DNA of 64,000 bases, from positions 23,505,936 to 23,569,935 of the forward strand of contig CAIIXF020000006.1 in NCBI GenBank assembly GCA_903813345.2, written 5' to 3'. The position numbers and the translations under genes are program-made. Source of the DNA: Owenia fusiformis. Its lineage: Eukaryota; Annelida; Polychaeta; Sabellida; Oweniidae. Below the pieces are notes generated by a model. That model was not told the DNA's origin, ran no database searches, and was given only the letters and a program-made list of their open reading frames with translations. Below, piece by piece: positions 4,916-64,000 of the stretch; positions within the stretch are counted from its first letter, which is position 1; every line of letters starts with the position of its first letter.

Positions 4916-5947
4916 TGGCATCAAACGTCTGTTATTTGAACATTATTTTTCGCATTTAAATAGCAATTTTACATTGAACCCTGTATATGGGGGTGTATGT
5001 ATTCCAGCTCATGAGGATTTTCTAAAAATGCCCAAAGTGTAAACTTTATTTGAGGAAAACTAAAGATTCTTGCAATAACGCATTTAATTATCTATAAATG
5101 ACTTCTATCTGTCCCACATCATTTGAGATTGAATGCTCAATAGTGTATGAATACTTGTATCTACAACTATTTTTGATGCTATGAGTATTGGTTATCAATT
5201 TTAAATAGTCTTCAACATGTATTGTAATGACTTCAGTATGAATGAAATGTCTTTTGGTGTTATGATTTCGTATGATGATATTGGTACTTGAATGGTGGGG
5301 AAGGGGTTTTTAGAAACAGTTTCTTTTCACGTTGCATTGTGGTCTGGGATAGTTGTTTTTTCTTTCTGGTGTACTCTAAGGTGTTTTCTTTTTCTTACTA
5401 TGTTCATTAGCTCTCCCGTTGGTACTTTCCCATACACAGTCAATGAATTAGAAATGATCATATGTTGTTGGTAGAATGCCCATGTCCCTTATGAATTGGT
5501 GATTCAACAATATTCTCCCATATTATCGTTGCTCTGTGGGGGATATTTCAAACCGTGAGAGGGGGGGGGGGGGGCAACTAAAACCAAGAGTGACCAGGGA
5601 CACTTAAAAGTTTAGCACCGTTTAAAATGGTTATTATTTTTATCTGACTGTAGTTGTTTTCAGGACTACGTTTTACTTTGATTGAAGAGAGAAGTAGAGA
5701 CTATTCTGCCATTGGCAAGATATGAACATTATGTAAAAACATTTATAGTATTTACAGCGACCAGATTAAGTCATTTTAACCTGCCATAGACCTATCTATC
5801 AAATCAATCATATTCACCTAATACAATCGTAATGTCATTCAATCACCAATGAATGTAGACACACGCATCCCTTGTCGTTAATAATTAAAACCATTGGCTG
5901 TTGCATTGACAAACGATTTATATGAGCAATACATATATGGTAGTGAA
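4916..5947. other. Intergenic, no gene seen
   Basis: AT-rich sequence between the dead synthetase and the right glycosyltransferase. It holds a 14-15 bp poly-G run near 5562-5576. Short open frames here have no recognisable motif. The promoter and 5' UTR of the downstream gene probably lie in the last few hundred bases, but no clear TATA box or initiator was identified. Confidence 0.5.
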
Positions 5948-8900
5948 ATGGAAGAAAAAGTTAGATTATTCTATATTCTAAATGTAGTTGTAGCAAGTGT
6001 GGTCGCATTTCGACAACTGATTTTCAACAAATCAACTAGAGAGTCATACTCTAGTGTCTTAGGACCAGTAAATGCTGTGAAGGCAAAAAGAAAATGGAGT
6101 AACGCTATAAATGAGTCTCGCGTTTTCTTAGGACAAAGTATTGCTGAGAAACTAGTAGATAATTCGAGTCACACTATACATGAAACTCTGGTCCCTAACA
6201 TAGTGCATTATATATGGGTGGATTTCGGAGGAGTATACAAATTTACCTTTCTAAACGCAGTCAGCTTTATCAGTGTCCACAAGAACTGGAAACCGGATGA
6301 AATTTTGGTGCACGTAAATAATAACAATCGCCCCCATGGGCAGTGGTGGGATTATGTGACGTCTCATGTAACAACAAAAATACGATTTCTAGAATATAAT
6401 ATGAGCCAAATAGACATCTTCGGGGAAAAGCCGAAATATGTTGAGCATATAGCAGATATAATGCGTTTACGAGTACTTAAAGGTAACTCAGACATTCTTT
6501 TCATTTCCTTATAAAGAATATAACCAGGGCTATTTCAAAAAAAATATACACGGTTGATATATGAATGTATGAAAGGAACGAGATCTGAAAAGCAAGCCCA
6601 ATGTCCTGTTTACTAATCCATATTCTTACCATTGAAAATGGATTCTTGCAAAACTCACTGGAACTCACCTAGTTACGCTGACGATACGTCAGCATTAAGA
6701 TGGAAGAACTTCCGGGCTTCGTTTTCGTTAAGATATTTTTATTTCTCAATTTTACACCACTTATAAGTCAAGTTGTGGACAATAATTTGGCTCAAAGTTA
6801 AGGCAGATAGTCTAGTTTGAGAATATACATGCGGTTTTATGTTTGGTAGATTAACGAAGACTCAATTCACATATTTAGTCCCTCGCTTTTGTTACGTTGA
6901 CGATCTGCATGAAAATTGCCAATGTGACGTTGACGAAGACACTTTGTTACGTTGACGAATGAAAAATGTTGATCTTTGGAATGCCATGGGGTATCGAAAG
7001 CTCCAGATCCAGGCTCAAAGATTTGTGGCATGTGCCCGGGGCATTTGTTAAGCTGAGATAATGAATCCTGACATCCTATTCACAATTTAATTCATTAGAG
7101 GCTCAAATAACTGTGGATAATCTGATAGTGTTATTGGTAAAGCGTTGCCTTGGCTTGGCCCGAGGACCTCCTGTTAAGCACGGGTTCGAAACGTGGGGAA
7201 GCATTTAATTTTTCATAAGATCCAATCATCAACAGTTGTGGAAATGCGAAGATATTTTCTTTATGGTCCAATTTCTTCCCTCTCTCACATAGCAAATGTT
7301 AGCAAGTGTCGATTCGATTTGCTCTGTGTAATTCATTGTTTACAATAAATAGAAAGATTCACCCCCCTTCCCCGCTTATGAAATTATCTTATTGACTAAA
7401 AATAATTCAGGCATAGCTAGTCAAATCAGAACGCTCACTCATACTAGATAACATTGAACCTAATGAATGTTTTCGAAGCGATAAATGGATAAGTTCATAT
7501 TTGAGTAAACTTCTGGTATCATTCAGTAAAATGTAGTGTATTATTATTATATCTTGGTTACCGCCATATTTGGCGAGCAATACCTCATTGGTATATTCCG
7601 TATTTAACGTATTTTACACTCGAAGATAGAGCCAGAAACCCCTCCTTGGAGGAGCCCTGTGTTCTTTTGTGTGTACAGGTACACAGATATACAGGTACAC
7701 ACCACAGCCTTTTATACGAGTCGTGAACCACTCAGTCAAACACCCAGAATTACATAACGCACAAACAAACTTGTCTGAACCGGGAATCGAACCCGGGGCC
7801 AAGCGATATTGGTAACCTTGACTCTGCCACTGAGGCATAGTGGAGTGTAATATAATGCAATATAATGCTATACTATGCTATGACCAAAATATTTCAAACA
7901 TCGCCAATAAAAATGTGGAGCCTATATCACTTTTGGTGTTTCAACCACGCACTTCATTGTCACGTGACGTAAAATTTCTGCTCTGAAAATGAAATCAGTT
8001 TTGCCACGAAAACAGACATGTGCTGACTTTATATCACCAATATTATGATAAAATGAACTTTTGGAATTGTTGATGGTTCACTATCATAAAGATGGCATAA
8101 CTAAATCGAGAAAAATGGTTTGAGTACAATCGAATCAATTTGTATCCTATGTCCCTCATCTTGCCAAGTTTTAACTGCATTTCACACCAAAATGATGGGA
8201 TCTGTAAATATAGGATCCTCATTTCTCGTCGAGTACCTGTCTCTGAACGCTCAGTGCCTCACCCTCGTGATTTTAGGACTTCCAGGACTCTCTGAAATAG
8301 TTGAACTATGTATTCATGATTGTTGCCCAATATACGCCAATGTTAATATGGTTCGTCAATGTAGCAACGGCTCAAAGTCACACAATTGTCAACGTAACAT
8401 TGATCTCACGTCAACGTAACAAAATGAGGGACTAAATATGTGAATTGTGTCTTCGTTTATATATCAAACATAGAACCGCCTGCATATTCTCAAACTAGAC
8501 CATCTTCTTTAACTTTGAGCCAAATTATTGTCCACAACTTGACTTTAAAATGGTGTAAAATCGAGAAAAATATGAAAATATCTTACCGAAAACGAAGCCC
8601 GGAAGTTCTTCCATCTTGTTACGCTGACGTATCTTCAGCATAAATAGGTGAGTACCAGTGATAGTATTCCACATGAATCTACTTCACTGCTAGATGACGT
8701 AATGAGTGGTTTAAGTCTGCGTAACGGCTACTGTAGTTCAATTAAGCTTCACAGAAATCACTATATATTTTATTGTTAACAACATGATTCTTGAATGGAA
8801 GCAAAGTTTTAGATTTGTAAATGTGAATGTAAAGTAATGCGTTTTTCAGATTGAGAGATATTATCACAGATAGTGATAGACATACTGGATATGGATGCCA

Positions 8901-10442
8901 AGTTTTATAAATTGATTTTTTGATAAACTTTCAAATTCAGTCAAAGTGATATCGTATTTTAAATCTACAAGTAAAATTATACCTAGAAATATGGTTTCAA
9001 ATATTTAATTTTCTTTGAAAACGTGACTAAGTCGGTTAGATTCCCCATAGACCCATATTATAAAATTACGAAAAGTGGAATATTTTTTTTATATTGGGCA
9101 GATAATATTTCTTTTACTTGACATATTTTCATTTGGATAACTATCAGATACATAAGGGTAATATGAAAATTGATCTGCTAAAACTGAGGCATATTCAAGT
9201 TTAAACAGCTTCAAACTAGTCATTACGTCATTACGTCTACCTGTTTACTTGTTTAGACTCGATCAACTTGACTTCTTCTGAGAAAATGAGGATTCCAGCA
9301 AAAGAAATATTGCCTTTGACATGGTAATACAACTTAAAAGCTGCATGTCACCATGCATGCTTATACTATGTTATCATGGGTATTGCTACAAAATCCTCAT
9401 TATCTTAGACGAACTCAAGTTTATTGAGTCTCAACAAGTAGTATGATGTGGGAGAGAGTCGGTAGAATTCATTTTCAATAATGGAATAGGGTTTCTTAGA
9501 TGGGGCCTTAAAGTCTTATTGAAAATTTTGGTTAGCTTTAGGCTAACAAGTAACAAACCCAACATAACGATGTCAACAACTCAGTGATTAGGAAACTGTC
9601 ACAAAGATCATAGTTTGACTTACTGAACACACCTAGCTAAAGTCCATAAGACGGAAAGGCAGGTACAGTATGTTCAGTTACTTCTGACGGATACAGGAGA
9701 CGGATCCGGAAAGTTTGGAAACATTGAAATGAAGTGAATTTTGTTTGTATCAATAATAATTTCTAAGTATTCCAGTTCTCTCAATACATTATTATCTTGG
9801 CAGGCAATTTGCTTTGCGTTTTCTTATCTTGATCTTTGCCATAGACCTATAATCAAGGAATCGTTTATGTATTATATTCTGTGATTTATTGCAGAGTACG
9901 GTGGCACTTATCTTGACAGTGATGTGATTGCGTTACGCTCTCTTGCCCCTCTTCGACGCTATGATCACACACAAGGAGTAGGAGCGATGAGTTCTGGTCT
10001 CTCCAATGGTGTAATTATCGCAAAGAAATCATCTAAATTTCTCGATATTTGGTTGGAGGAATACAAAATGTATGGAAAGGAGCACGTGCGCAGTCTTTGG
10101 AGTTACTATTCCATAGAAAGGCCTAGACAATTACTTAAAAGACAACCAGAGTTAGTCAGAATAGAGAAAGACACTTTAGTGAGACCTCTTGTGGGAATGT
10201 ATAGAAACATGGAGACGAGACAAAATGTTTGGAAATATAGTTATAGTATGCATGTCTGGAAACGCAAGACTTTTATACCAGAGAGACCAGATCAAATAAA
10301 ATTGATCTCAAACCAATCGCTGTTAAGAGATGTAATGGAATACGTTGTATTCAATAAGATACCATTCTATGCGAAGAATGATAGAAAAGCTAAGAAAAGT
10401 AGTCAGAGCCGTAAAGCTAGGTCCAGAGAATCAAGACAATAA
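5948..10442 (+). CDS. GT32-like (Gly_transf_sug) glycosyltransferase, two exons, right tandem copy
   Basis: Exons are 5948-6482 and 9895-10442. The donor is AAAG|GTAACT and the acceptor TTATTGCAG, phase 1, giving a 360-residue protein. Residues about 7-26 form an uncharged stretch (FYILNVVVASVVAF) expected to be a type II signal anchor for the Golgi. PNIVHYIWVDFGG at about 83-95 is the usual start of the catalytic domain. The codon split by the intron opens EYGGTYLDSDV, whose D186-S187-D188 is the DXD metal/sugar-nucleotide site. The C-terminus is a basic Lys/Ser/Arg tail. The ATG at 5948 was chosen because it directly precedes the anchor; the frame extends upstream without another ATG. The family transfers a sugar from a nucleotide donor to a glycolipid or glycan; the substrate cannot be told. 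AATAAA overlaps the stop codon. The 3.4-kb intron is filled by nested repeats. Confidence 0.8.
7135..7205 (+). repeat. tRNA-like remnant (weak)
   Basis: TATTGGTAAAGCG near 7133 resembles a polymerase III A box, and GGGTTCGAAACG near 7183 resembles a degenerate B box at a tRNA-like distance. The acceptor stem does not close, so this is at most an old tRNA-derived SINE head. Confidence 0.3.
7590..7845 (-). mobile_element. tRNA-derived SINE
   Basis: On the minus strand a tRNA-like head is followed by a non-tRNA body. TGCCTCAGTGGCAGAGTC (about 7840-7820) fits an A box. GGTTCGATTCC (7793-7783) is a perfect B box, inside a T-arm with CCCCGGG...CCCGG pairing. The body carries a GT/AC-rich dyad (GTGTGTACCTGTATATC and its repeat) and ends near 7590. 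It sits inside the foldback element of 6655-8665. It is not a working tRNA: there is no acceptor stem or sensible anticodon arm. Confidence 0.65.
9237..9512. mobile_element. MITE family 2, copy with long inverted repeats
   Basis: Left arm: GACTCGATCAACTTGACTTC then GAGAAAATGAGGATT (about 9257-9295). The right arm (about 9390-9505) is its complement, with AATCCTCATTATCTTAGACG and CAAGTTTATTGAGTCTCAAC. Related copies are at 28925-29375 and 32385-32715. The left end looks truncated. It lies in the glycosyltransferase intron. Confidence 0.65.
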
Positions 10443-11105
10443 ACTATGTTCACCAATACCATATTGCAATATAAACATTTTTATCGGACCTCGATTTTAA
10501 TGTAAGGTCCTATCCCGGAGGACCTATCTTAGCTGATAGAATCCGTCGGATGCATCAAATTATTTCCTGGTTCGGTTTCTGAAATCAGATAATGAACCCG
10601 TTATTCACCATCACAAATTGATTACAAGTATTGGTATTTTGTCGTGTTTAAAGATGCATAGCAAATGTTCTTTGGACCAAAATTAATTTTTCCCTCAATT
10701 GAGTTACTTAATAATATCAATTACTGGGTAATTATATATACTGTAAGTTCTACACTTTCAACAGTATTGACATAAAGATGGCAAATCATATTGTATTGTA
10801 TATATATTTATTGCACATATTTAAATCGAGGTACAGATTATTGTTTTTTACAAAATAAAATAGAAAATAGGTTTTCAATTTACAACGAAGACACACATAA
10901 TACCCTATAAACCATTGAAGAGCATTTAATTGTTGTTAAAGTATGAACATATGAAGATGCATGATAGAAAATAAGAAATATTTTGAACTAACGTTTAAAA
11001 GTGAGTATGAGGCAGCCTAAAACGGCAGTCAGTCTAGCTGGATATGACTAATGCAGCTGGGTTGTACGATTTTAATAAATAACGTAAACCAAAGGTTGAA
11101 AGCAG
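10443..11105. other. 3' UTR duplication and convergent intergenic spacer
   Basis: 10443-10795 matches the 3' flank of the left glycosyltransferase copy, so it marks the duplicated block. Near 10790 a short ATTGTATTGTATA tract resembles the 3' tail of the LINE at 16.5 kb. TTTATT at about 10808 would be a polyadenylation signal for the minus-strand synthetase. I see no gene here. Confidence 0.45.
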
Positions 11106-12920
11106 TCATGCTTTGATATTCAAAACTTTAAAAGCAATGTCCTTTATTTCGCTGACATTGGGTTTGCCATTTGATAACACATGCCACTTGTATAAAATCA
11201 CGACATTCTTGGGAACTGGTAATAAACCATCTAATTGTTTAAGTTCTTTACTCGTGTCTTTGCAAAATGTTATTAAATCATCCTCAGATACCGTTTGACT
11301 ATCTTTTAAATAAACACATACACAGATTCCTTGTCCCAATCGTTGGTCGGGTATAGCGATAGCCAATGCTTTCGCCACTGCAGGATGAGCCAAAATGGTA
11401 TCTTCGATGGACTTAGGTGATACCAGAATAGTTCCTCGTTTTATGAACTCTTTTTTTCGACCTTGAACTGTGATGTGCCCACCGGCGTTCATTGAGCCTA
11501 AATCACCAATGTCATACCAGCCATTTTGAATTTTCTCCTTCGTTGCATCTGGATTTCCGAAATAACATGTAAACATTCTTGGGCTTTTGACTTTGATGTT
11601 GCCCAGTGTATTAATGGGTAGAATAGTGTTGTCATCAGTTACGATCTTAACCTCGGTATAAGGCAATGGGAAACCCGATGAGCCAATCTGTGCTTCAATT
11701 ATATCCCTAGTGGCATCATCTTCACAGAATTGACCAGATATGAAAGATGTCTCTGTTGTGCCATACCACATCGTAACACCAAGCGTCGGTAATTTGACCT
11801 TGACCTCTTCAAGTAGGTCACATGGCACCCTCTGTGTTCCAGTCCAGGCATTCGTGAATTTATCAAGCTGCAAATGTTCATATGATATAACATTTAACAT
11901 ATCCCGAAGCATGTATGGAGCGAGAATACCTCTGGTACATTTCTCACGTGATACGATCTGAAGAATTGTTTCAATTGTCGAGGCGCCTTGCGCAACTGAA
12001 TGTTTAGGATCGATGGTGACAGTTGTTTAGCCAGTTACCATACAATGAAACAGACCTGCCAAACCTGCTCCCCACGACATTGGCAAATCACTAAAGTACC
12101 GATCTTCAGCATTGATACGTTTCCTTTTTGCAATAAATCGATACGAATTGACTATCCCAAAATGTCTATGTACTACATGTTTTGGCCGTCCAGTTGTCCC
12201 TGATGTCTGATAGACTGCACAAATACTTTCAGCTGTAATTAAGGCCTTATGATTGCTCAATGCATCTGTATCTTCCCGTCCCGTATCCTTTATTAGATTG
12301 TGAAAATCTGATGCTCCTTTCATTGTTTTACCTATGCATATCACGGATTTAACGTGTGGTAAATCGGCGTCATATTCAGAAGTGCAGACTGTTTCAAAAA
12401 CTCGCCTTGTGACTTCATTAAATTCACGATCAATGTGATCTGCTTTTCGAAGGATGATTACAGCCCTAGCTTTCAAGTCATTCAAAGAGAGTTTTAAGTC
12501 ATCTCCGCTTTTTCTAGACAGCGAAAGGAAACACGGGACCAAATTCGCCTTTAATGCAGCCATCCATGCAACCGGGTGCTCAATTCGATTGGGAATAACC
12601 ATGGCAACCGCATCGCCATTGGTTAAACCAAGCCTGATTAGCGAGGCGGCTAAATTATCAGACTGGCGATGCCACTCCTTAAAACTAAGACATTCTCTTT
12701 TGTTAAGATCAATATCTGCAACTACAAGTGCATCCTTGTTCGGAAATTTATGTGCATGTCTTTCGAACGTATCAACAAGTGTGAGATTTGAAAGTTTTGT
12801 TGGTGATGTTACGTTAATGTAACTCTCTGTTAATGCCCCAGTCGAAGGTACAGCATCCTGGATGGAATCGGGTCCATCCATTTCCGTTGATATATCGGTT
12901 GAATTGTCGAATGTTTGCAT
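11106..12920 (-). CDS. Acyl-CoA synthetase (ACSF2/medium-chain type), intronless, one in-frame TAA
   Basis: One 605-codon minus-strand frame from ATG at 12920 to the stop at 11106, interrupted only by TAA at 12029-12027 (codon 298). The reading phase is the same on both sides. It belongs to the AMP-binding (adenylate-forming) family, which activates a carboxylate with ATP and then loads CoA. Motifs: P-loop TSGTTGRPK at 239-247, YGTTETS at about 386-392, YDIGDLG at 469-475, GRKKEFIKRG at 487-496, and SNGKPN with the catalytic Lys at about 586. The N-terminal SYI...T.VDTFERHAHKFPNKDALVV pattern is like ACSF2. No mitochondrial presequence is evident. The lack of introns beside spliced genes suggests retroposition. 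The TAA may be a fixed nonsense mutation, a polymorphism or a read error; if real, the product stops before the C-terminal catalytic motifs, and the locus is a young pseudogene. Confidence 0.75.
12027..12029 (-). other. In-frame TAA within acyl-CoA synthetase
   Basis: Between ...HCMVTG and TTVTIDPKHSV... the minus strand reads TAA. The 38 codons after it continue open to the next methionine and keep the family sequence, so no frameshift is involved. A single base change would account for it. Confidence 0.85.
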
Positions 12921-15673: not shown

Positions 15674-18600
15674 ATGGGAGAAAATAAACTTGGAAATGAA
15701 GTCGTGGAAATAGACGAGAGTGACATGGTTTCATTGCACAATGAAGGAACAGATGAGGAGGAATTTGTTAGTTTGAACAATGCTGCTATAGGAAGTAAAA
15801 ATTGTGTTGTCAACGATCCCGATGAAAACGCAGACGACAGCTCGAAAGCCCCGGATGGTGGATGGGGTTGGGTGTGCGTGTTTGCTTGTTTTTGTATGCA
15901 TATCTTAATAGGTGGCTTAGGAAGAGCGTATGGGATCATATATCTCGATCTCCTAGATACGTTTAATAGTACGGCTGCTGAAACTGCCCTTGTCGGAGGC
16001 ATGATGTCCACATTAAGGACAGGGTTAGGTAAAATGTTTTAAGATCTCTTTCCCAGGGTATATCACTTTTACATGTAGTCATTTTCTATCTCCATTACAT
16101 GACTTATAACAGAGTTGTACAAAATTATACCATTGATGATGAGTGGTATACATCATCGTTCTCAAATTGTATAAAAAGCAGTTCACAAGCAAATTATTAT
16201 TTAACTGTTGAAACATTATGTAGTTTATAAATTATGTAACTTTAGATATCACACTGCCAACTGTAACTACGCAAAGAGTGTCATAAAGTTACTTATGACT
16301 GGTTTTATTAGTTTTAAGTCTTCTTTCCAGGTTTCATTGGGACAACATTGAGTAACAGATTCACAAGCAGGAAGGTCGTGATGGCTGGTGGTCTGTTTCT
16401 AATCATCGGATGTCTTCTCAGTGCATTTCCTCCAAATCTCCCCTACTTGTATTTTAGCTACTCATTAATTGCTGGTAAGTAAAGTGAATATGAAATATTC
16501 CGAGAGAATTCAAAATGGGAAACACCTGTATTGTATTGTATTGTATTGTATTGTATATTCTTTATTTCCTCCATTAAATGAAGATTACAATTTAACATTT
16601 TAACTTAACTCAAAATTAAGGACAAATAAAATAATAATAATAAATATACATTATTTACAAATATTCCAGGTATTTACATATTTAAATGTAGTACAGCATG
16701 GTTTAGAATATAATCTATTTTCACCGCAGATACTATTAAAAATTGTTGCCAAATGCAATCATTACAATCAAATAACATATCTGTTCTGCTACCTAAAATA
16801 GTTTCAAGAAATATCTCATCATCAGTATTAAATAACGCCACTGAGTCAACAACTCCTAATGTATCAACAACAGCATTAAATAGATTATCTCTTTTTTGAA
16901 ATAGTACTCGACACTGTAACAATATATGTTTTGTGATGTCATTCGTCACACTATTGCAAAGAGGACAGCATCTATCAGTTTCTGAGTTCAGTATTAATAA
17001 GGATAAAAGCTGTCCCAATTTCCAAGTGTGAGATGGATAAATAATTCCCAATTTCCAATGTATTATTGGTTCGTACACTGTATGACTATTTCTAAAGCGA
17101 TATAGAGAGGCATCCTGATCCAGCATTTGGTGCCATAATTGCTGTTGTTTTGAAAAGATTTGTGCGTTAACTATCATTTTCCATTTGGATTTATGCATTA
17201 CAACAGTAGTTTTAATATAACGTTCAAACTCAGTATATAAAATAGGATAAGAATCTTTAAGTTGCAGAATATCAGCCAAAAAGCCCATTTGTTTGAGGTG
17301 TAAAACGTTTCTAACCAGCAAGCTAGATATTCTAATTAGTAAAATCTGTTTTTGAACATATAGATTATCAGTTCTCAGTAATCTGCCAAGAAACAGGAAT
17401 TTCATTTTATTGATGTAACTCTCAACGGACAATAGACCAAGCGTGCTCAAGACTATAGCACTAGGTGTTCTTATAGGGAAACCTTGGATTCTTTTGGCAA
17501 CCTGTCGTTGAGCACGCTCGAGCTTTTCCATTTCATTTTGTTTAATATTGAACCAAAGTTCACACCCATAAAATGCAGAAGGCATTATGATATTTTTCCA
17601 TATTTTGGCACTAGTTAGAGGGTTGAGACCATTACGGTACATACCAATAAAACACAAAGAGTTAAAAGTACGTGTTGCTTTAAGACAAGCTTCTGTTATA
17701 GCTGCCTTAGAGCTTACATGAGTATTAGAGTCAATGATATTGCCTACGTATATTTGTTGGTGTCTAGTTGGAAGGGATTCACGTCCAAGGTGCCAACGTG
17801 TTTCATCATATCGTTTTAAATGCAAATCATATATTAATATGGCACTTTTACATTTATCTAAGGGGAATCCTGCATGGTATACTAGACGCCAGCGACAGCT
17901 GTAATTATATACAATATCTAATAATTTTTGTAGTTCATTAGGCGTAGTTCCTAACACGGTAGTATCATCCGCTACTAGGATACATGGCATTATTAAGTCA
18001 TCGCTAAGTGCGACTCCTAGGCCAGAATCACATAATTCTTTTATAAGGTCATCAATGTATACCATGAACCAGAGCGATGAGCAAATTCTACCTTGACCAC
18101 AGCCCTGATTAATAGTAATTTCACGGGAGTATGACCCATCATATAGAATTCTAGCTTTCGTGTCGCTATACGATTTGACAAAGAGTCTCCAAGCTTTTGA
18201 GTTAATTCCAAGTTTATATAATTTTACAAAAAGTCCATTTCTGTACAATAAGTCAAAAGCTTGGAGATTATCAAGCATGGCTGTGAAAATGGGAGAGTTT
18301 CTCTCTTGGAAATGAGCTACTATTTCTTTAAAAACGAATGTGGCCATTTGACTCCCGCCATTATGGGCAAATTGCAATTTGTGCGGAACATTTGCACATT
18401 TTAAGATATGCATATTCCTTTCCAAGAGAATAGTATCCCAAAGTTTGTTAACAACAGAGGTGAGTGTAAGTCCTCTATAGTTTGTCCTGATTAATTTATC
18501 TTTTTTCTTGCCCTTGTACAATGAAATAATGACGCCAATTTTTTGGTTTTGCGGGACATATTCTAGCCTAATCATTGCATTGAATAGGTCAGTGATCACC

Positions 18601-21600
18601 TTAACTAACATGCTACCACCGTTTTTAAGATGTTCATTAGTTACCATATCTAAACCAGGAGCTTTGTTATTAGGACTCTGTACAATAATATCATGTATTT
18701 CCTGAGTAACGATAGGATTAATTAAGGTAGTATCATGGTTTGAAAATGATTCTTTGTAATTGCGTTGGAACTCAGTTTCAATATTTCGCATAAAGTCATT
18801 ATCAAAATGTGGAAACTGTTTGGGAGTCCCTAACATCTCAAAATGATCTGCCCATGCGTCCCTAATTAGACATGGATCTCTAATTATTGTTCCATCAACT
18901 AGTAATTCGTGCGAATTTGTTTTAAGTTTTCTGGATTTCCTAACCAGACGATAGAAATCATTTATGTTGAGCTCAGCAGCTTTGTCAAATTTAGAATCAA
19001 GATTACGTTCATAATTTATTTTAGCCTTCCGCAGTTCTGCACGAAAGAGACGTTTTGCATTTTTATATTGTGTTAAAGCTACATTGTTATGATTTCTTGG
19101 TCGTCCTGCGGAGATCCAAATGCGTCTAAACTGTCGCATTGATACATGAAGATTTTAAACTGCACCATATTTCCAAAAAGGATTCAAAAAGTGGTGAAAT
19201 TGAGATTTAGGTATCGCAAGGTCTGCTGCATCATTTAAACAACCGACAATTTCATGTGTCAACTTTTCCAAATCAGAATGATTATGTGCATTCGAAACGT
19301 TAATTTCTTTTAGTTTACTCTTAACAATATTACGATATCTAGTGAGCTGGTCTTCGTTAGCATTATTCCATTTTAGAACACTTTTATAGCTAGTTTCGAA
19401 ACACCTACTTTCTAATTCAAATTGCATATATATCGGATTATGATTGGATAAAATCAAATCATGATCATTAAGGACTGCACATTTTTTCACAAAATCCAGT
19501 TTAGAAGCAGGTATTATGATAAAATCAATGCATGATTGATGTTCAAAATCAGAACTACAATACGTATACACAGGGCCTGTCGTCAGGTTTTGTGCATTAG
19601 CACATACCAGATTAGAATCAAAAATAAATTTCTCGATACATTTTCCTCTATCGTTAATAGCACCAATAGAGCGTGGCCCTATATTAGAGGATAGGTGGGC
19701 ATTAAAGTCCCCTGCAATTATAACAGTACCCTTACTATTGTACATATCAAAAATATCCATCAAATTTTGAACATACTCACGGTACTCAAAAATCGACGTA
19801 TTACTACAGGGTAAATAAACCCCTATTATATACAATGGTTCAGTTTCTAGACCTATCTTTATTCCACAGATTCTGTCATTTTCAATGTCTAATTCCGAAA
19901 CATTTTTAATTGAATTTCTGTATAATATCCCGACACCACCTTGGCCGCGTCGTTTATTTACTATATCGATAGGAAGTGATTTATCACAGACAGCAACACT
20001 AGAAAAATGCGAATCAATGGAATTAAGATAATTAACATTGCAAGGATAAAGCCAATGCTCTTGTATAACACAAACATCAATGTCAGATAACTTCTGACAT
20101 AAATATGGCGTACTGTACATGACGCCTTGTACATTCCATGACATTAAGTTAAGTTTAGCAGTCATAGAAAGAATGACAAATATATATACAATAACACTTG
20201 AACTAATCAAAGTCTTCATATACAGTTTTGTTCTTATTAATCCACTCTTTCGAAATTATACCTTTAGGCCAAAAGGCAGGATCATCAATTATATATTGAA
20301 AGTATTTTGCTACAACATTTAGCCTCAAGGAATAAGCTGTGGTGATAGGAGAGTGATATTCCTTCAGGAGTCGAACAAAGGTAACAGTGACACCTTTGTT
20401 TCGTGCATACAGTTTAAGTTTGTTGCTCAATTCTTCAAAAGGGAGTTGAGATCTAACACGTGATATGAATAGGCGTTTAATATTTTGTCGACTATGTACG
20501 CCTGTGAATCCAATATCGTCCGGGTTGTTAAAGGTGGATACACTATCAGAGTTAGATGATCTTGAAGAAATAGGAACGGTAGGAATAGGTAGTGAAGCAC
20601 TGGGGGCACTGTTACTGTTAACAGGTGTTGTAACATTAGCTGCAGCAATCTTGTTTGATTTAACAGTGGATTTGTTAATCGCTTGTGGAGATCTAGTATA
20701 GGTTGTTTTGGGCGGTGTAATTGCTGCTTTTAAACAGAAAGTATGGGCACAATCACTAGAATTAGTTGCTGAAGTTAAGTGAGAAGAAGTAGTAACATCA
20801 GAGAGTACATTAGTTGCCATCGCAGCACTATTTGTCGTGACACTGTTGTCTTCAGCATCTTGATCAGCAGTTGTAGTTATGGTGGACTTGGCTATGTCGG
20901 TAGCATTATGTTCAGGTAGGTCAGTACTCTGGAGCGGTGAGGAGGAACAGTGTTGCATTATTGGTGATGGATCAGTGACGACAGGTGAATTCCTATTTGC
21001 AGTATCTGAGTGGTTGCTCCTTGGGGAGTTATCAGAAGATGTCATCACCAATTTACTAGTTTCATTAACTCGATTTAAGGTGGTGTTCGTGTTGACACAA
21101 TTTTTATGGACAGTAGCTAATTTGCCCTCAATTATGTTCAGTTTTGTTTTCAATTCATTTTCACATAAAGACAATTTTGATTTCAAAAGAAGAATCTCAT
21201 TGTTCTTATCTTTGATTGTAGAGTTTATTTGTTTTAAGTCATTTTTTGCTCTAAATTCCGAATCTCTCAATTGTTGTTCATTACGTTTCAACGCTTCATT
21301 TTCATTTTGAATTTGTTTTATTTGAAGTTTCTGTTCATCCAGTGTTTGAGAGATGTTTGCACATGTCTCTTTAATAGATAATAGATGATTCATCATCGAT
21401 TCTAACACAGGTGATGGGACTAATGTCGTATTCTCTGTTGGATCAACAGGTTTTGCCTGTTTAGTAGTAGTTGAGCGGACTTTCCGTGGGTTTACCATAG
21501 CTTTAATATCGCTGATATTTCCAGCTCCCTCGATGAAAAGAAATAAGTGATAAATATCAGTAGCGAGTTTTTCATTCGCACTGGAACTGGCTTTTTTCTT

Positions 21601-24600
21601 TCTACTTGGGAGACGGCGCACAAGAGCACCTTGAGGCATCACATCTTTCTTGTGGATTCTTGCATAGTCGAATAAAGCTTCGCGTGTAGCTACCAAGCTA
21701 ACCTAGGAATCACCTGGGTAGAAAATTGTAAGCAAAGTATTGTCAAAAGGGGGACCACCTGTGTAAAAATATGTAAGCAAAGTATTGTCAAAAGGGGAAC
21801 CACCTGTGTAAAAAATTGTAAGCAAAGTATTGTCAAAAGGGGAACCACCTGTGTAAAAAATATGTAAGCAAAGTATTGTCAAAAGGGGAACCACCTGTGT
21901 AAAAATATGTAAGCAAAGCATTGTCAAAAGGGGAATCACCTGGGTAGAAAATTGTAAACAAAGTAGTGTCAAAAGGGGAACCACCTGGGTAAAAAATTGT
22001 AAGCAAAGTAGTGTCAAAAGGGGAATCACCTGGGTAAAAAATTGTAAGCAAAGTAGTGTCAAAAGGGGAACCACCTGTGTAAAAATATGTAAGCAAAGTA
22101 TTGTCAAAAGGGGAACCACCTGTGTAAAAATATGTAAGCAAAGTATTGTCAAAAGGGGGACCACCTGTGTAAAAAATATGTAAGCAAAGTATTGTCAAAA
22201 GGGGAACCATCTGTGTAAAAATATGTAAGCAAAGCAGTGTCAAAAGGGGAATCACCTGGGTAGAAAATTGTAAACAAAGTAGTGTCAAAAGGGGAACCAC
22301 CTGGGTAAAAAATTGTAAGCAAAGTAGTGTCAAAAGGGGAACCACCTGTGTAAAAATATGTAAGCAAAGCAGTGTCAAAAGGGGAATCACCTGGGTAGAA
22401 AATTGTAAACAAAGTAGTGTCAAAAGGGGAACCACCTGGGTAGAAAATTGTAAGCAAAGTATTGTCAAAAGGGGGACCACCTGTGTAAAAAATATGTAGG
22501 CAAAGTATTGTCAAAAGGGGAACCACCTGTGTAAAAATATGTAAGCAAAGCAGTGTCAAAAGGGGAATCACCTGGGTAGAAAATTGTAAACAAAGTAGTG
22601 TCAAAAGGGGAACCACCTGGGTAGAAAATTGTAAGCAAAGTATTGTCAAAAGGGGGACCACCTGTGTAAAAAATATGTAGGCAAAGTATTGTCAAAAGGG
22701 GAACCACCTGTGTAAAAAATTGTAAGCAAAGTATTGTCAAAAGGGGAACCACCTGTGTAAAAAATATGTAAGGAAAGTATTGTCAAAAGGGGAACCACCT
22801 GTGTAAAAATATGTAAGCAAAGCAGTGTCAAAAGGGGAATCACCTGGGTAGAAAATTGTAAACAAAGTAGTGTCAAAAGGGGAACCACCTGGGTAAAAAA
22901 TTGTAAGCAAAGTAGTGTCAAAAGGGGAATCACCTGGGTAAAAAATTGTAAGCAAAGTAGTGTCAAAAGGGGAACCACCTGTGTCAAAAATATGTAAGCA
23001 AAGTATTGTCAAAAGGGGAACCACCTGGGTAAAAAATTGTAAGCAAAGTAGTGTCAAACGGGGACTCACCTGGGTAAAAAATGTAAGCTAAGTAGTGTCA
23101 AAAGCGGAACCACCTGTGTCAAAAATTGTAAGCAAAGTAGTGTCAAAAGGGGAATCACCGATTATTCTGTAGCTATAAATTATGGAAAATTATACCCATG
23201 ACAAATTCTTCAATTGTTTTTTAGATATTCATTTAGTATGCCATGTTATATTTTCCAGGATTTGGGGGAGCACTTGTCTATGCACCTGGTCTGGCAACCG
23301 TAGGGGAATATTTCGATAAGAGACGTGGGATAGCTATTGGTTTATCAACGGCAGGCTCGGGATTTGGATCCTTTATATTTCCTCCAATTATTCAGATTTT
23401 ACTGACCAAAATTAAATACAAAGGGACTATGCTATTTCTTGCTGGGCTCATGGGAGCTCATTTGCTTATTGGGGCTGTATATAAACCCCTCAAAAATAAG
23501 CCAACTAGGCGATTGGACAAATGTGAAGATGGAACTGCAAATGCCACGGAACTTGAAACGTTGGCTGTGGAAGATACAGATGAAATTACTGAGACAAGTA
23601 AATGCGGAAATGATGCCGCAAATACAGAAGGTGTTAACACTGATGTTCATGCAGATAGTAAAGAGCAACGCAATGGCGTACTTGAAGAAATTGATGACTC
23701 TGTCCAAAACTCAGAAATTGATTGTGAAGAGAGAAAACGCACATGTGGCTGTTGTGGGAAAAGATCTAATAGTGCTAAACCTCTATTGGATTTGTCTTTA
23801 TTGAAGGATATTCATTTTATGCCGTTTGCATTGTCGGTCCTTTTTGCGAATGTCAGCTACAACCCTGCATTTATGTTGGTGGCTGCATTGGGCAAAGAAA
23901 AAGGAACATCTGATACTCAAGCTGCGTTTCTATTATCAGGTTTAGGAATCGCAGATACAATCGGAAGAGCATCCTGCGGATTCTTTTTTGATTCTCGCTT
24001 TGTTAAACCTGGTCACAAACGCCATTATTTCACATTTTCCATGATAGCATCTGCTACAATAGCCACATGCTGGCCTTTCGCAGAGAGCTTCGGAACATTA
24101 ATGGTTTGCAGTGTCCTCCATGGTTTCGTAACGTCCATTATGATCTCACAAAGGCACGTGATGGTTGCGAATGTTGTGAAGCCAGAGAGTTATTACAGTG
24201 GTGTGGGTCTCACGACTGGTTTCCAAGGTGTTGGTATTGCAATAGGACCCCCTCTGGCAGGTAACAGAAACCTTTAGAAACAGTACACTGACACCGATGT
24301 TTGTTACGTTGAATCTAAACACGGTGTAAATACCATATACAATTCATTTGCAACCAATATTAGAATCATTCATGCCATATAAGGAATATTTACATAATTT
24401 ATTTAAAATTCTACCAAAAGTTGATCCATTGCATTAGCAACAACCCAAGGAAAATCTTGTGGGTGTTTTTGCCATCATCACTGTGCATTTAATTTGCTTA
24501 AATCACTGTTTGTTTTTGCAGGTTTAATCAGGGATAAAACGGGCTCGTACACTATTTCTTACTTCTACATGGGTGGAATGATGGTATTCGCAGCTCTCAT

Positions 24601-57900: not shown

Positions 57901-60900
57901 TTTACTGTATCTTTCTTTATTACTAGATTCCAGCAGGGAAGTTAAGAGAAAACCCAGGAATCTATGCAATCATGCAACCCAACTAAGGAGGATTGTGTGT
58001 TTCTCATACAATGGTTACGCATATGAACATTTGTCAATTTTTTCATTATTAGATTCCAGTAAGGACGAAAAACAACGTACCACCCAAATATCATATGCAC
58101 CACAAGGAGGAAGGATGGTGCCAAAGTTACGGGAACCTAGACAATTATATGCAGTGTGTGGAGGGGAGGAGGCATATCATGCACTGACCAGATGGTAAGG
58201 CACCCACTATTGGCTGGTATATATCACACTAAATTCTACAAGTACTGTAGATGCTTTCATAAGGGGGCAAATTGTAAATGATTTTGAAGTCAATCTTCAA
58301 AAATAATATGGGTGGGTGGGTTGGGGGTCAAATAGTTTACTAAAAGGGTCATGTGTAGAATTTAGTGTGATCAAGCTTATGGGACTGGTTCTCCTCAATA
58401 TTTTGAAGATGAGAACACAGACAACAGACAAATATTGGGGAAAGTGTCTGGGGGTAACATGGAATCATGGATGCTTGTTGTGTTATTGATTTTATGCCAC
58501 AGATCAGATCAATTCAATTCAATTTATTTGATTCAACATTTCACCATATGCAATACAATATTTCATTTTGATAATGATATTTCATGAATCATTATTTTTA
58601 TTTTTAACAGTCATGTTTTAGTTGTAGAACAGAAGCTATTTCAATCAAAATAAAAAAAATGAAAAAGAGTATCATTTGTACTGATTAAAGATCTTTTTTT
58701 TTATCATTTTATGAAACCCCTAAATACTGTATGCTAAAAGTCTATTGCCAGAGAATAATAAAGGATGGCTCCTCTGATGGCAATTGACTTTTGACCAGTC
58801 TCAGTCACAATTGCATTGTGAACCAAGAGCAACCAAGCCAAGTTTGTCACTAAATTCAGTATGCGTAGATATCAGTATACTGCAATCCTGGCATACAGGG
58901 TGTACCGAAAATATGGGGCCCCCATTAATTTGCATGTATAATTGTACCTTTATTCATATTCCAGGCCTGCTGAGATACAAGTACTACCAGAACCCATAGA
59001 GTTCTTGAAGAATCCTATATCCCTGGGCCAAGAACCTATGTACAAACCAAGTATGTTTTTTCTCTATTCATATTTTTCAGTGTTCAATGGTATATTTAGA
59101 GATTTTTGTCAATATGACGTGAAATATGTCTGAGGTCTGCCAGTATAGGCTGACCTTGCACCCGAAGCGCTATATTTGGGTAAGAATGTATGTTTCATAT
59201 CATAATTACTTTACTGATGTATAGTGAAACCTGTGAAGTGGAACACCTCTAGAAGTGGACCACCTCTGTAATTGGAACACTTCAGAGTCCCAAGACTAAT
59301 GGGCATAATGTTAAATTAACTTTCATAAGTGGAACACCTTACAAGTAGAACACTTTATAGAGGTTCCTAAGGTGTTTCACTTGACAGGCTTTACAGTATA
59401 CATACTATACCTTTATTTCCAAGATTATTTTTATCAATGACGTGTCACATCTGTTTGTGCATATGAAGTAGAAATGAAACATGATGTTATAATGTTGTCA
59501 TGTAATTAAAGAAAGTGGGTGCCGCTATATCGGCCTCTATAGCCTGCAGGCCCGTAGCCAGGATCTGCCAAAGGGGAGGGGGGTTCATTTTTGCAAAATT
59601 TTAGACCAGGGGGAGGCTGCCTAGGGGGCTGATAGCCTCCCATAAAAATGCCTTGTTAGATATGTTATACTTTAAGCTACTGTATATCTGAACTTCAGTA
59701 TATAAAGCAAGATTATTTGATTAAAATACTTTTTAGATGTAAGATCATGGGAATAGATACTTACTCACATTGTATATCTTTGATTCTAGCTGGCAAGGAG
59801 ACTACACCAATGATTAGAGGGGAGAATGGGGGAGGAAGGCTTGTCTACTTCTATGAACCTTCAGCAGGAAGTTTTGTAAGACATCAATGGCACAATAAAA
59901 GCTTGCATCTTTTGAGAATTTTTTTTTTTAAATGATAAATTCATAAAAATCAATTAATAAATTAATATTTTAAATTTTTTCTGATTTTTACTGATTTTCA
60001 TTTAATAAAATCAATTAATAAATTAATATTTTTAAAATGTTTCTAATTTTTAGTGATTTTCATTTAAGCTATGATAAAATGAAAATTGGTGTGTTTATTT
60101 CCAGTTTCTACGATCACGTGTAGGGGGGCATCGCAATGGATGTGCAGACAATGTTGCAGTGCAATTACAGAACCAAGAGGACAAAACCTTAATATTTGAA
60201 GCCAGATTTGAAAGTGGAAACCTGCTTAAAGCTGTGCAAATGTAGGTAGTACAGCAGAAAAATTAAAAAAGATTTTTCTATCAGTACATGGTTTGAAAAT
60301 AGGCATAGAGTGTATGTGACTAAAAATTATGCAATTTCCAGTAATTCAAATATAAATTACATTTCACAGGGAAAATTCTGTGAAAGTTAAAACCAGAAAT
60401 TAAAAATGGTATCATGTACATTTTCCACAATGAAAAATACATGGATGTACACTGTTAACTTATTATTTTGAGTTAGCTGAATCTATTATGTTAAAAAAGC
60501 TATCAGATTTAATTCAAGATTGAACTTAAATCATTTGGACATTAATACCAATCCATACCTTTACATGAATGTTTTTTTGCTTTCAGATCTGATTTTGAGT
60601 ATGAATTAACTCTAAGAAATGACCTGTATACATCTAAACACACTCAATGGTTCTATTTCCGTGTGGCAAACACCAGAGCCAACTGCAAATATAGATTCAC
60701 TATCACCAATCTCATGAAAGTAAGTGGCCTCGCTTCTACTTGTGTAAAGCACATGTCAGTGTGGTAGCCTGACATTTGTCTCAGTGTATTTCAACATAAA
60801 AGGGGGTATATAGGTCCTAGGGGGTATATGGGCCAACCATAGAGTTTCCTTTCAATTTTAAACAAGTTGAAACCAAACCAAAGATATTTTAAAATGTTAA

Positions 60901-63900
60901 GGTATCCTTTTCAAATTCTATCACTGTTCAACTATATGATACATGTATGTGCTTTAAATGGGCTCTACCAGAACTAGCCTTTTGCAGATTATTGATGTAA
61001 ATAGACATATTGTTATGGTCTCCATTTTTTCATGATGGTGGTTTGTGTAGCATCTGGCTTTCAGCATCTTTACCAAATGGCAGGTGGTGACATTTTGCAT
61101 GTTAATGTCTTGTTTCTTATTTCAGCCTGATAGTTTATACAACAATGGCATGAGGCCAGTCTTATACAGTGAAAGGCTAGCAGCTGAGAAACAAATAGGT
61201 TGGAAGAGATGGTGACACTTTGCATGTTAATGTCTTGTTTCTCATTTCAGCCTGATAGTTTATACAACAATGGCATGAGGCCAGTCTTATACAGTGAAAG
61301 GCTAGCAGCTGAGAAACAAATAGGTTGGTAGAGATGTGACACTTTGCATGTTAATGTCTTGTTTCCTATTTCAGCCTGATAGTTTATACAACAATGGCAT
61401 GAGGCCAGTCTTATACAGTGAAAGGCTAGCAGCTGAGAAACAAATAGGTTGGAAGAGATGGTGACACTTTGCATGTTAATGTCTTGTTTCTCATTTCAGC
61501 CTGATAGTTTATACAAGAATGGCATGAGGCCAGTCTTATACAGTGAAAGGCTAGCAGCTGAAAAACAAATAGGTTGGAAGAAATGGTGACACTTTGCATG
61601 TTAATGTCTTGTTTCTTATTTCAGCCTGATAGTTTATATAACAATGGCATGAGGCCAGTCTTATACAGTGAAAGGCAAGCAGCTGAGAAACAAATAGGTT
61701 GGAAGAGATGGTGACATTTTGCATGTTAATGTCTTGTTTCTTATTTCAGCCTGATAGTTTATACAACAATGGCATGAGGCCAGTCTTACACAGTGAAAGG
61801 CTAGCAGCTGAGAAACAAATAGGTTGGAAGAGATGGTGACACTTTGTATGTTAATGTCTTGTTTCTTATTTCAGCCTGATAGTTTATGCAACAATGGCAT
61901 GAGGCCAGTCTTATACAGTGAAAGGCTAGCAGCTGAGAAACAAATAGGTTGGAAGAGATGGTGACATTTTGTATGTTAATGTCTTGTTTCTTATTTCAGC
62001 CTGATAGTTTATACAACAATGGCATGAGGCCAGTCTTATACAGTGAAAGGCTAGCAGCTGAGAAACAAATAGGTTGGAAGAGATGGTGACACTTTGCATG
62101 TTAATGTCTTGTTTCTCATTTCAGCCTGATAGTTTATACAACAATGGCATGAGGCCAGTCTTATACAGTGAAAGGCTAGCAGCTGAGAAACAAATAGGTT
62201 GGTAGAGATGTGACACTTTGCATGTTAATGTCTTGTTTCCTATTTCAGCCTGATAGTTTATACAACAATGGCATGAGGCCAGTCTTATACAGTGAAAGGC
62301 TAGCAGCTGAGAAACAAATAGGTTGGAAGAGATGGTGACACTTTGCATGTTAATGTCTTGTTTCCTATTTCAGCCTGATAGTTTATACAACAATGGCATG
62401 AGGCCAGTCTTATACAGTGAAAGGCTAGCAGCTGAGAAACAAATAGGTTGGAAGAGATGTGACACTTTGCATGTTAATGTCTTGTTTCCTATTTCAGCCT
62501 GATAGTTTATACAACAATGGCATGAGGCCAGTCTTATACAGTGAAAGGCTAGCAGCTGAGAAACAAATAGGTTGGAAGAGATGGTGACACTTTGCATGTT
62601 AATGTCTTGTTTCCTATTTCAGCCTGATAGTTTATACAACAATGGCATGAGGCCAGTCTTATACAGTGAAAGGCTAGCAGCTGAGAAACAAATAGGTTGG
62701 AAGAGATGTGACACTTTGCATGTTAATGTCTTGTTTCCTATTTCAGCCTGATAGTTTATACAACAATGGCATGAGGCCAGTCTTATACAGTGAAAGGCTA
62801 GCAGCTGAGAAACAAATAGGTTGGAAGAGATGTGACACTTTGCATGTTAATGTCTTGTTTCCTATTTCAGCCTGATAGTTTATACAACAATGGCAATGGC
62901 ATGAGGCCAGTCTTATACAGTGAAAGGCTAGCAGCTGAGAAACAAATAGGTTGGAAGAGACTGACACTTTGTATGTTAATGTCTTGTTTCCTATTTCAGC
63001 CTGATAGTTTATATCACAATGGCATAAGGCCAGTCTTATACAGTGAAAGGCTAGCAGCTGAGAAACAAATAGGTTGGAAGAGATGGTGACACTTTGCATG
63101 TTAATGTCTTGTTTCTCATTTCAGCCTGATAGTTTATACAACAATGGCATGAGGCCAGTCTTATACAGTGAAAGGCTAGCAGCTGAGAAACAAATAGGTT
63201 GGAAGAGATGTGACACTTTGCATGTTAATGTCTTGTTTCCTATTTCAGCCTGATAGTTTATACAACAATGGCATGAGGCCAGTCTTATACAGTGAAAGGC
63301 TAGCAGCTGAGAAACAAATAGGTTGGAAGAGATGGTGACACTTTGTATGTTAATGTCTTGTTTCCTATTTCAGCCTGATAGTTTATACAACAATGGCATG
63401 AGGCCAGTCTTATACAGTGAAAGGCTAGCAGCTGAGAAACAAATAGGTTGGAAGAGATGTGACACTTTGCATGTTAATGTCTTGTTTCTCATTTCAGCCT
63501 GATAGGTTATACAACAATGGCATGAGGCCAGTCTTATACAGTGAAAGGCTAGCAGCTGAGAAACAAATAGGTTGGAAGAGATGGTGACACTTTGTATGTT
63601 AATGTCTTGTTTCTTATTTCAGCCTGATAGTTTATACAACAATGGCATGAGGCCAGTCTTATACAGTGAAAGGCTAGCAGCTGAGAAACAAATAGGTTGG
63701 AAGAGATGTGACACTTTGCATGTTAATGTCTTGTTTCTTATTTCAGCCTGATAGTTTATACAACAATGGCATGAGGCCAGTCTTATACAGTGAGAGGCTA
63801 GCAGCTGAGAAACAAATAGGTTGGAAGAGATGTGACACTTTGCATGTTAATGTCTTGTTTCTTATTTCAGCCTGATAGTTTATACAACAATGGCATGAGG

Positions 63901-64000
63901 CCAGTCTTATACAGTGAAAGGCTAGCAGCTGAGAAACAAATAGGTTGGAAGAGATGGTGACACTTTGCATGTTAATGTCTTGTTTCTTATTTCAGCCTGA
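42959..64000 (+). CDS. AGBL2/3-like: Cytosolic carboxypeptidase, AGBL2/AGBL3 (CCP2/3) type, 5' half
   Basis: Exons, all GT-AG and phase-consistent: 42959-43015, 48212-48266, 51348-51470, 58053-58194, 58965-59050, 59790-59875, 60105-60241 and 60587-60719, giving 273 codons; then a repeated exon from 61126. The ATG at 42959 opens [27 protein letters not shown] is the short N-terminal signature of CCP2/3. An Asp-rich stretch (residues about 70-78) follows. [44 protein letters not shown] and RFTITNLMK match the N-terminal beta-sandwich domain that precedes the M14 metallopeptidase domain. The zinc-binding HxxE/H catalytic part lies beyond the window. These enzymes shorten polyglutamate side chains of tubulin, mainly in cilia and centrioles. 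AGBL2 and AGBL3 cannot be separated here. The gene is over 21 kb because of repeat-filled introns. Confidence 0.88.
43617..44042. mobile_element. Foldback MITE in AGBL-like intron 1
   Basis: GGGGAGGCATCAAAAGTTCG with GATGTCGGATAGAAAACT at the left (43621-43676) is complemented by AGTTTCCGATCCGACATCG and AACTTTTGATGCCTCCCC at the right (to 44038). The arms are about 56 bp. The inner edges are poly-G-rich. Confidence 0.8.
45195..45238. repeat. Pentanucleotide microsatellite (ATACA)n
   Basis: About eight ATACA units. The same pentamer forms the 3' tail of the LINE at 16528, so this could be the scar of a severely truncated insertion of that family. Confidence 0.8.
46250..46930. repeat. Degenerate tandem array rich in TGACCTTGA
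   Basis: Irregular units of about 100-190 bp each contain CCAAAT..., TAGATATTGACCTTGAAAT and a following CAGGTCACCTAATCATTGG. TGACCTTGA or a close form appears near 46287, 46396, 46409, 46491, 46583, 46672 and 46768, with AGGTCA near 46425, 46606, 46695 and 46813. TGACCTTGA is the complement of TCAAGGTCA, the extended half-site bound by ERR and NR5A nuclear receptors. No coding content. Confidence 0.7.
48425..48570 (+). mobile_element. tRNA-derived SINE in AGBL-like intron 2
   Basis: The A-box-like AGTGCTGGGGTAGAGAAATT at 48431 is followed 40 bp later by the B box GGTTCGATCCC (48473-48483) within a GTGGGG...CCCCAC T-arm. A tail ending TTAACAATAAATATTTT follows. It is not a functional tRNA. 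It is different in body from the SINE at 7.6-7.8 kb. Confidence 0.6.
48571..50320. other. AGBL intron 2, no feature resolved
   Basis: AT-rich intron sequence with no gene, clear repeat arms or RNA recognised. Confidence 0.4.
50321..50548. mobile_element. hAT-like MITE (228 bp)
   Basis: Ends CAGGGCTCTCACCAGG and CCTGGCGAGAGCCCTG form a 16-bp inverted repeat with one mismatch. The flanks GGGTGATT and GGTGTATT are an imperfect 8-bp target duplication. The interior repeats AGGGTGTGGTGCT near both ends. Confidence 0.8.
51471..53344. other. AGBL intron 3, left part
   Basis: AT-rich intron, no gene or structured repeat recognised. Confidence 0.4.
54330..55095 (-). pseudogene. HEADT-motif repeat-family protein relic, left arm
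   Basis: Minus-strand reading from about 55085: [19 protein letters not shown], then [30 protein letters not shown] and [13 protein letters not shown]. After a frame change comes [13 protein letters not shown] with further fragments. The downstream end (about 54460-54360) reads as a Cys-rich tail ([15 protein letters not shown]). This is the C-terminal half of a protein found in many copies in marine invertebrate and fish genomes, known to me by its HEE/AADTR...H.V..G motif. Function unknown; probably mobile-element related. It is broken by frameshifts and truncated 5'. Confidence 0.6.
55545..56110 (+). pseudogene. HEADT-motif repeat-family protein relic, right arm
   Basis: Inverted partner of the left-arm relic. 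GGCAGATACACATATG at 55557, GAGCACTAGGACCACAAAGA at 55738 and GGAACTGATACCACATCTGG at 55792 correspond to the left arm in reverse. Multiple stops and indels make it more decayed than the left copy. The Cys-rich tail equivalent is at about 56000-56110. Confidence 0.55.
57799..57907. mobile_element. pogo/Tigger-like MITE (109 bp) with TA duplication
   Basis: It starts CAGTAGAATCTG and ends GGGATTTACTG, flanked by TA on both sides (57797 and 57908). Related to 59222-59396. It lies 19 bp upstream of the extra AGBL splice acceptor at 57926. Confidence 0.6.
57927..58052 (+). other. Possible in-frame extension of AGBL exon 4 (duplicated splice acceptor)
   Basis: TTTCTTTATTACTAG|ATTCCAG at 57926 is mirrored 126 bp downstream by TTTTCATTATTAG|ATTCCAG at 58052, the acceptor assigned to exon 4. 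The 126 bp between them is open in the AGBL frame (42 codons, both copies opening L/D-S-S). Use of the upstream acceptor would therefore insert 42 residues without a frameshift. Partial similarity beyond the acceptor suggests a local tandem duplication. The downstream version encodes the family-like sequence ([11 protein letters not shown]). Confidence 0.5.
59222..59396. mobile_element. pogo/Tigger-like MITE (175 bp)
   Basis: The ends TAGTGAAACCTGTGAAGTGG and CACTTGACAGGCTTTACAG are complementary for about 25 bp with mismatches, and are flanked by TA. The repeated GTGGAACACCT pattern is like pogo-group termini. Confidence 0.65.
59547..59650 (+). repeat. GTAGCCAG-family MITE fragment
   Basis: GCAGGCCCGTAGCCAGGATC at 59547 is the left terminus of the hAT-like family seen at 31741. 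No matching right end was found. Confidence 0.5.
61087..64000 (+). repeat. Tandem array of an AGBL exon with its 3' splice site (24 copies, open at right edge)
   Basis: Exon starts after CAG lie at 61126, 61251, 61375, 61500, 61625, 61750, 61875, 62000, 62125, 62249, 62374, 62498, 62623, 62747, 62871, 63000, 63125, 63249, 63374, 63498, 63623, 63747, 63871 and 63996. The 23 intervals are thirteen of 125, nine of 124 and one of 129. Each unit is about 39 bp of intron end (GTGACACTTTGCATGTTAAT, then TTTCTTATTTCAG) plus 85-86 bp of exon ([18 protein letters not shown], then [10 protein letters not shown]). The peptide matches the AGBL segment expected next after NLMK. Units are nearly identical. 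Changes include TAG for the last Lys (copies 2 and 9), N to K (4), L to Q (5), Y to H (6 and 16) and a 6-bp insertion (15). Copies 2 and 9, 874 bp apart, share the same TAG, showing block duplication. Minus-strand frames here are shadows. Confidence 0.95.

Follow-up and report, generated by a model that had tools for sequence, protein, structure and literature searches.

How does a gene remain productive when one of its intron-exon boundaries has been multiplied into a long tandem series? This question is raised by a 64-kb stretch of the genome of the annelid Owenia fusiformis (contig CAIIXF020000006.1, positions 23,505,936 to 23,569,935, forward strand), hereafter called the window, with positions counted from its first base. 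Its right end is taken up by a minisatellite array that lies within a gene of the cytosolic carboxypeptidase type and repeats the end of an intron together with the start of the following exon. As set out below, the array is likely a neutral intragenic minisatellite, of which one copy gives productive mRNA and the others are ignored by splicing.

A Minisatellite Array Across an Intron-Exon Boundary

The array occupies 61085..64000 on the plus strand, runs head-to-tail and continues past the right edge of the window. Tandem Repeats Finder (TRF) described it with a period of 125, 23.4 copies, 96% matches and a score of 5435. When the array was split at the acceptor, 24 acceptors were counted but 23 complete coding copies; of the 24th copy, 5 bases fall within the window. 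Thus, the 24 head-to-tail exon copies claimed in an earlier note on this DNA stand as a count of acceptors, while the complete coding copies number 23. The units measured 125 bp in 13 cases, 124 bp in 9 cases and 129 bp in a single case (n = 23). The following features describe the array:

61087..61125, plus strand: intron tail of the first unit, 39 nucleotides (nt), with GTGACA, branch-point-like TTAAT, pyrimidine tract and TTTCAG (from sequence and acceptor score)
61126..61211, plus strand: first coding copy, 28 residues plus TG, then the joint ATG/GTGACA
62871..62999, plus strand: exceptional unit u15, 129 bp, with a 6-bp insertion and a joint without GT

The units differed from each other by 3.39 events in the pairwise mean (97.3% alike) and fell into 17 distinct types among 23, which were mixed along the array, with several variants common to scattered units. 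Adjacent units were no more alike than others, and differences did not grow with distance. The first unit was not divergent from the rest; the right boundary of the array lies outside the window. When one unit was compared with the window by BLAST, 25 hits were obtained, and the sole hit outside the array was a 12-bp match with E=0.36.

All 24 intron tails carried TTAAT, a pyrimidine tract and TTTCAG, in agreement with what had been noted before for each copy. One 38-base pattern with C/T choices at four places fitted all of them, and 20 nt separated the second A of the branch-point-like TTAAT from the exon.

The joints between copies were more variable. In the 125-bp units the joint read GATGGTGACA in 12 cases and AATGGTGACA in one, and in the 124-bp units it read GATGTGACA in nine of nine. 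The difference between the two lengths is one G within a GG. Unit u15 had the joint GACTGACA, with no GT, and its frame therefore runs on across the intron tail and enters the following copy. The 6-bp insertion of u15 (62871-62999) duplicates neighbouring bases. Overall, a GTGACA joint was present after 22 of the 23 copies, and the coding length up to the joint GT was 86 nt in 13 copies and 85 nt in 9, with no GT in one. Besides its 12 occurrences in the array, GATGGTGACA was found once more in the window, at 12012, giving 13 in all.

At each joint, the residues GWKR plus TG are fused to sequence that is also present in the upstream intron at 61087, where the left flank already reads GTGACATTTTGCATG. 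This had been recognized previously, albeit with 61091 as the position instead of 61087. The caution drawn from it, that the joint GT is not necessarily a donor, is sound.

The Repeated Boundary Belongs to a Carboxypeptidase Gene

Five coding exons were found upstream of the array:

58065..58194, plus strand: upstream coding exon, 3' part, donor ATG/GTAAGG with a score of 5.13 (open spliced frame)
58965..59050, plus strand: upstream coding exon, acceptor TATTCCAG, donor CAA/GTATGT (open spliced frame)
59790..59875, plus strand: upstream coding exon, acceptor GATTCTAG, donor TTT/GTAAGA (open spliced frame)
60105..60241, plus strand: upstream coding exon in which the PF18027 domain begins (open spliced frame, PF18027)
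60587..60719, plus strand: last coding exon before the array, ends TITNLMK, donor AAA/GTAAGT (PF18027)

The five exons and the first copy form one joined frame without a stop, which crosses from 60719 into 61126, and the five introns up to the first copy measure 229-770 nt. The sole Pfam family matched by the spliced protein was PF18027, the cytosolic carboxypeptidase N-terminal domain, with E=1.3e-10 and 41.8 bits for a 118-aa spliced peptide (cut-off 23.2 bits) and E=5.7e-10 for a 218-residue spliced peptide. The proposal of an AGBL-type host was thereby borne out at the level of a carboxypeptidase; we take AGBL2/3 to be the nearest relatives. Weak PDB matches to the cytosolic carboxypeptidase-like protein 5 and to the metallo-carboxypeptidase 4a37 were also obtained. 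The PF18027 match spans profile positions 1-67 of 107, and the remainder of this domain and the catalytic M14 domain would be placed downstream, past the right window edge.

The open frame from 60719 into 61126 and the PF18027 match mark the left edge of each unit as a genuine exon start. At the right edge no exon end is fixed since the native downstream donor lies outside the window, and the unit may hold the whole exon or, of a longer one, just the 5' part. Carboxypeptidases continue past the GWKR position with further conserved residues. Of the former description as one coding exon, the 5' edge is therefore retained and its completeness is not; likewise, the idea of a minisatellite born from an exon holds at least for the intron-exon boundary.

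Relatives of the array were also sought. An exact 26-base DNA pattern gave no match in viral contigs, and 109 matches in a scan of genome contigs included no relative. The related-locus search gave no match in 14 control genomes, a result that does not establish absence. One locus in a viral contig, retrieved by protein search (L001), was dropped as a chance match, with 27 query residues at 47% identity and without PF18027.

Splice Signals and the Transcripts They Would Yield

Splice sites were scored with matrices of human-type percentages, which are not fitted to O. fusiformis. The 24 array acceptors scored 5.69-6.04, a level reached by at most 1% of 3512 AG sites (35 of 3512 scored at or above it, including 23 array acceptors, in a scan that ended 10 bases before the window edge). 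The four native acceptors scored lay below, at 0.64-5.5. The five native donors of the host gene ranged from -1.94 to 5.13, and the joints, with 0.63 for ATG/GTGACA and -1.78 for GAT/GTGACA, are poor to middling donors.

The conceivable transcripts were then compared by their reading frames. Reading on from each of the 23 testable acceptors led to a stop after 26-72 residues in 23 of 23 cases. Inclusion of two copies through joint donors, with combinations that skipped at least one copy and began with a copy other than u15, gave a stop in every combination tested, with 13 distinct outcomes. To splice one copy to its neighbour, an intron of 39 nt would have to be removed, in which only 18 nt precede the branch A; for comparison, the shortest human introns named in excerpts of a published report measure 43 nt (PMC4463651). 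Since every alternative tested ended in a stop, productive mRNA requires that one copy, and no more, be used and that this copy have a proper exon end; the natural candidate is probably the last copy, outside the window. Thus, the picture of a spliceosome facing many acceptors is apt in so far as these are near-identical and well-scoring; a real choice among them does not follow, as the inner and two-copy uses that were tested end in a stop.

Relation to Known Repeats at Splice Boundaries

Minisatellite-like repeats across intron-exon boundaries, named mirages, have been described for lancelet genes, namely Adh3 and the globins BflGb6 and BflGb9 (PMC3087553). In BflGb6, the unit consists of the intron 3' end and the 5' part of the exon, measures 150-160 bp and is 81-100% alike between copies; AG/GT signals are present in many units, and 6 or 3 units occur depending on the haplotype (PMC3087553). 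The mirage kind is further characterised by a length that varies between haplotypes and by concerted evolution in which the boundary units escape homogenization. Reverse transcription PCR for Adh3 and globin suggests regular splicing (PMC3087553), and the lancelet Adh and TnC mirages are said to yield no aberrant mRNAs (PMC3902484). Lancelet PGBD5 carries 60- and 108-bp repeats over splice sites, the 108-bp repeat being an imperfect triplication, and its splicing was inferred by the authors to be undisturbed (PMC3902484).

The Owenia array shares three structural features with the mirages: a tandem minisatellite-like repeat within a gene, a unit that spans the intron-exon boundary, and AG/GT splice-like signals in the units (AG at 24 acceptors, and GT at all but one of the 23 joints). 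Like the PGBD5 repeats, it is made of short segments duplicated in tandem, splice sites included, within a coding gene. It differs in extent, with at least 23 copies of about 97% similarity compared to the imperfect triplication of PGBD5 and to the 6 or 3 units of BflGb6, and the gene is a different one. Judged by its sequence, the array is most likely a long member of the mirage kind, and most likely neutral and tolerated by splicing. Relative to the mirage reports, novelty lies in the gene and in the number of copies, which exceeds that of the stated cases (3 and 6 units in lancelet globin and the PGBD5 triplication). A literature search confined to a limited collection brought up no such array for a carboxypeptidase gene.

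More distant parallels exist. Human internal tandem repeats at exon-intron boundaries likewise represent minisatellite expansion that alters a splice boundary, but have 30-bp units on average, repeated four times, and lie in segmental duplications (PMC2812944). Exon-4 duplications in earthworm metallothionein are absent from the final transcript; inversions are also mentioned there, and neither a unit nor a copy number that could be set beside the Owenia array is stated in the described passages (PMC12783039).

Favoured Explanation and Alternatives

The favoured explanation starts from a segment of about 125 bp, i.e., 39 nt of intron end and the adjoining coding sequence of about 86 nt, that would have been tandemly duplicated and then expanded, probably via unequal exchange. 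The array would act as additional intron sequence within the pre-mRNA. A single copy would be joined productively to the donor at 60719. This copy is most likely the last, and its coding part would run on into the native exon end and a donor outside the window; the remaining acceptors would be decoys, presumably silenced by exon definition, which requires a good donor close to any acceptor that is used. In favour of this explanation, 9 of 23 joints are one base shorter and one of 23 has no GT. The coding copies in view also look neutral, i.e., unconstrained, because silent changes made up 3 of 12 coding substitution types, matching the 19-26% expected without selection, and because a Lys-to-stop change, present as one type, was carried by two of the 23 copies.

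Two observations weigh against it. The scores of the joint donors lie inside the range of the native donors, so the score alone cannot dismiss the joints as donors. Furthermore, in a post hoc comparison of base substitutions (Fisher p=0.0005), a minor count of at least 3 was reached at 4 of 4 variable sites in the intron tail and at none of the 12 in the coding part. This comparison set aside indels, the joint change of u15 and the difference of one G at the joint, which the alignment placed in 10 of 23 units. This pattern departs from uniform neutral drift and could reflect past constraint on the coding part. The confinement of the common, presumably older variants to the intron part could result from such constraint, from copying of a master unit or from chance.

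Dscam1 is an example of a mutually exclusive exon array, in which tandem exon copies are used one at a time. For such arrays, a mechanism based on RNA structure has been described (PMC6071210). Applied to the present locus, every copy would be a genuine exon, equipped with an acceptor and a joint GT donor, and one would be chosen per transcript. The resemblance lies in the large number of exon copies in tandem, with a single one open to use, and it extends to the 24 well-scoring acceptors, the GTGACA joint after 22 of 23 copies, the joint donor scores within the native range and the stops in all tested two-copy combinations, so that only single use would be tolerated. However, the copies are separated by 39 nt of intron, look neutral and differ in frame: with 86 nt, 85 nt or no GT up to the joint they are not frame-interchangeable. 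They are also near-identical in protein, so a choice among them would gain little, two carry a stop, and the coding changes look neutral. A docking-selector pairing between the upstream intron and one unit was no better than in shuffled sequences, 76.5% of 200 being at least as strong. This interpretation is judged quite improbable. An array of decoy or poison exons is unlikely, if somewhat less so. In that case, transcripts that use an inner acceptor would meet a stop and be degraded, and the copy number would tune carboxypeptidase output. The array acceptors (5.69-6.04) indeed outscore the four native ones (0.64-5.5), and every inner use tested ends in a stop; yet undisturbed splicing was observed or inferred in lancelets with the same arrangement (PMC3087553, PMC3902484), and the coding part of the copies is without sign of current selection.

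An assembly artefact, whether a smaller number of units was inflated or errors in the consensus produced the joint variants of one base, appears highly improbable. Tandem repeats are error-prone in assembly, units of 124 and 125 bp are set apart by one G within a GG, and the draft at one such lancelet locus was apparently aberrantly assembled (PMC3087553); against this stand the 17 distinct unit types among 23, mixed and with several variants common to scattered units. It is similarly doubtful, and only a slight chance is given to it, that a unit holding the complete exon and at least 24 strong acceptors constitute a copy-number-dependent splicing rheostat whose coding part was formerly under purifying selection. 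If true, inner copies would catch and destroy part of the transcripts, expansion and contraction of the array would set carboxypeptidase output, and the older purifying selection would account for the missing old variants of the coding part. Intron gain by tandem AGGT duplication, in which the AGGT of every unit would serve as donor and acceptor alike and units would be removed precisely, was not supported: all 23 copies contained AGGT, one of them twice, but the site scored as an acceptor reached -9.12, a value equalled or beaten by 74.1% of AG sites.

With a neutral minisatellite as the preferred explanation, the locus offers a natural experiment on how the spliceosome passes over many strong near-identical acceptors and finds the working one. 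Competition among many acceptors is conceivable, with the acceptor scores as its sole support. The array may also represent intron growth or gain at an early stage. As the host gene encodes a recognisable protein, ordinary RNA sequencing could address the splicing of the array.

Other Features of the Window

A second minisatellite was found at 21706-23159, with a 45-bp unit and 32.2 copies. It adjoins a minus-strand element resembling a long interspersed nuclear element (LINE) with open reading frames (ORFs) for endonuclease and reverse transcriptase (16677-20255), and lies on the 5' side of this element with a further long minus-strand ORF (20206-21702) in between, in the manner of a 5' repeat region of the LINE-like element. 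On the minus strand, 22 CAGGTGG motifs were counted in this minisatellite.

Glycosyltransferase-like ORFs are present on the plus strand at 991-1653, 5885-6511 and 9885-10439. The Gly_transf_sug match of ORF 991-1653 was barely above the cut-off; ORFs 9885-10439 and 5885-6511 had no Pfam match at E 0.001, and the former is very similar by eye to ORF 991-1653. A 69-bp tandem repeat with 4.4 copies lies at 4217-4520, and its translated phrase MSFISLTLGLPFDNTCHL is also found in ORF 11083-11295.

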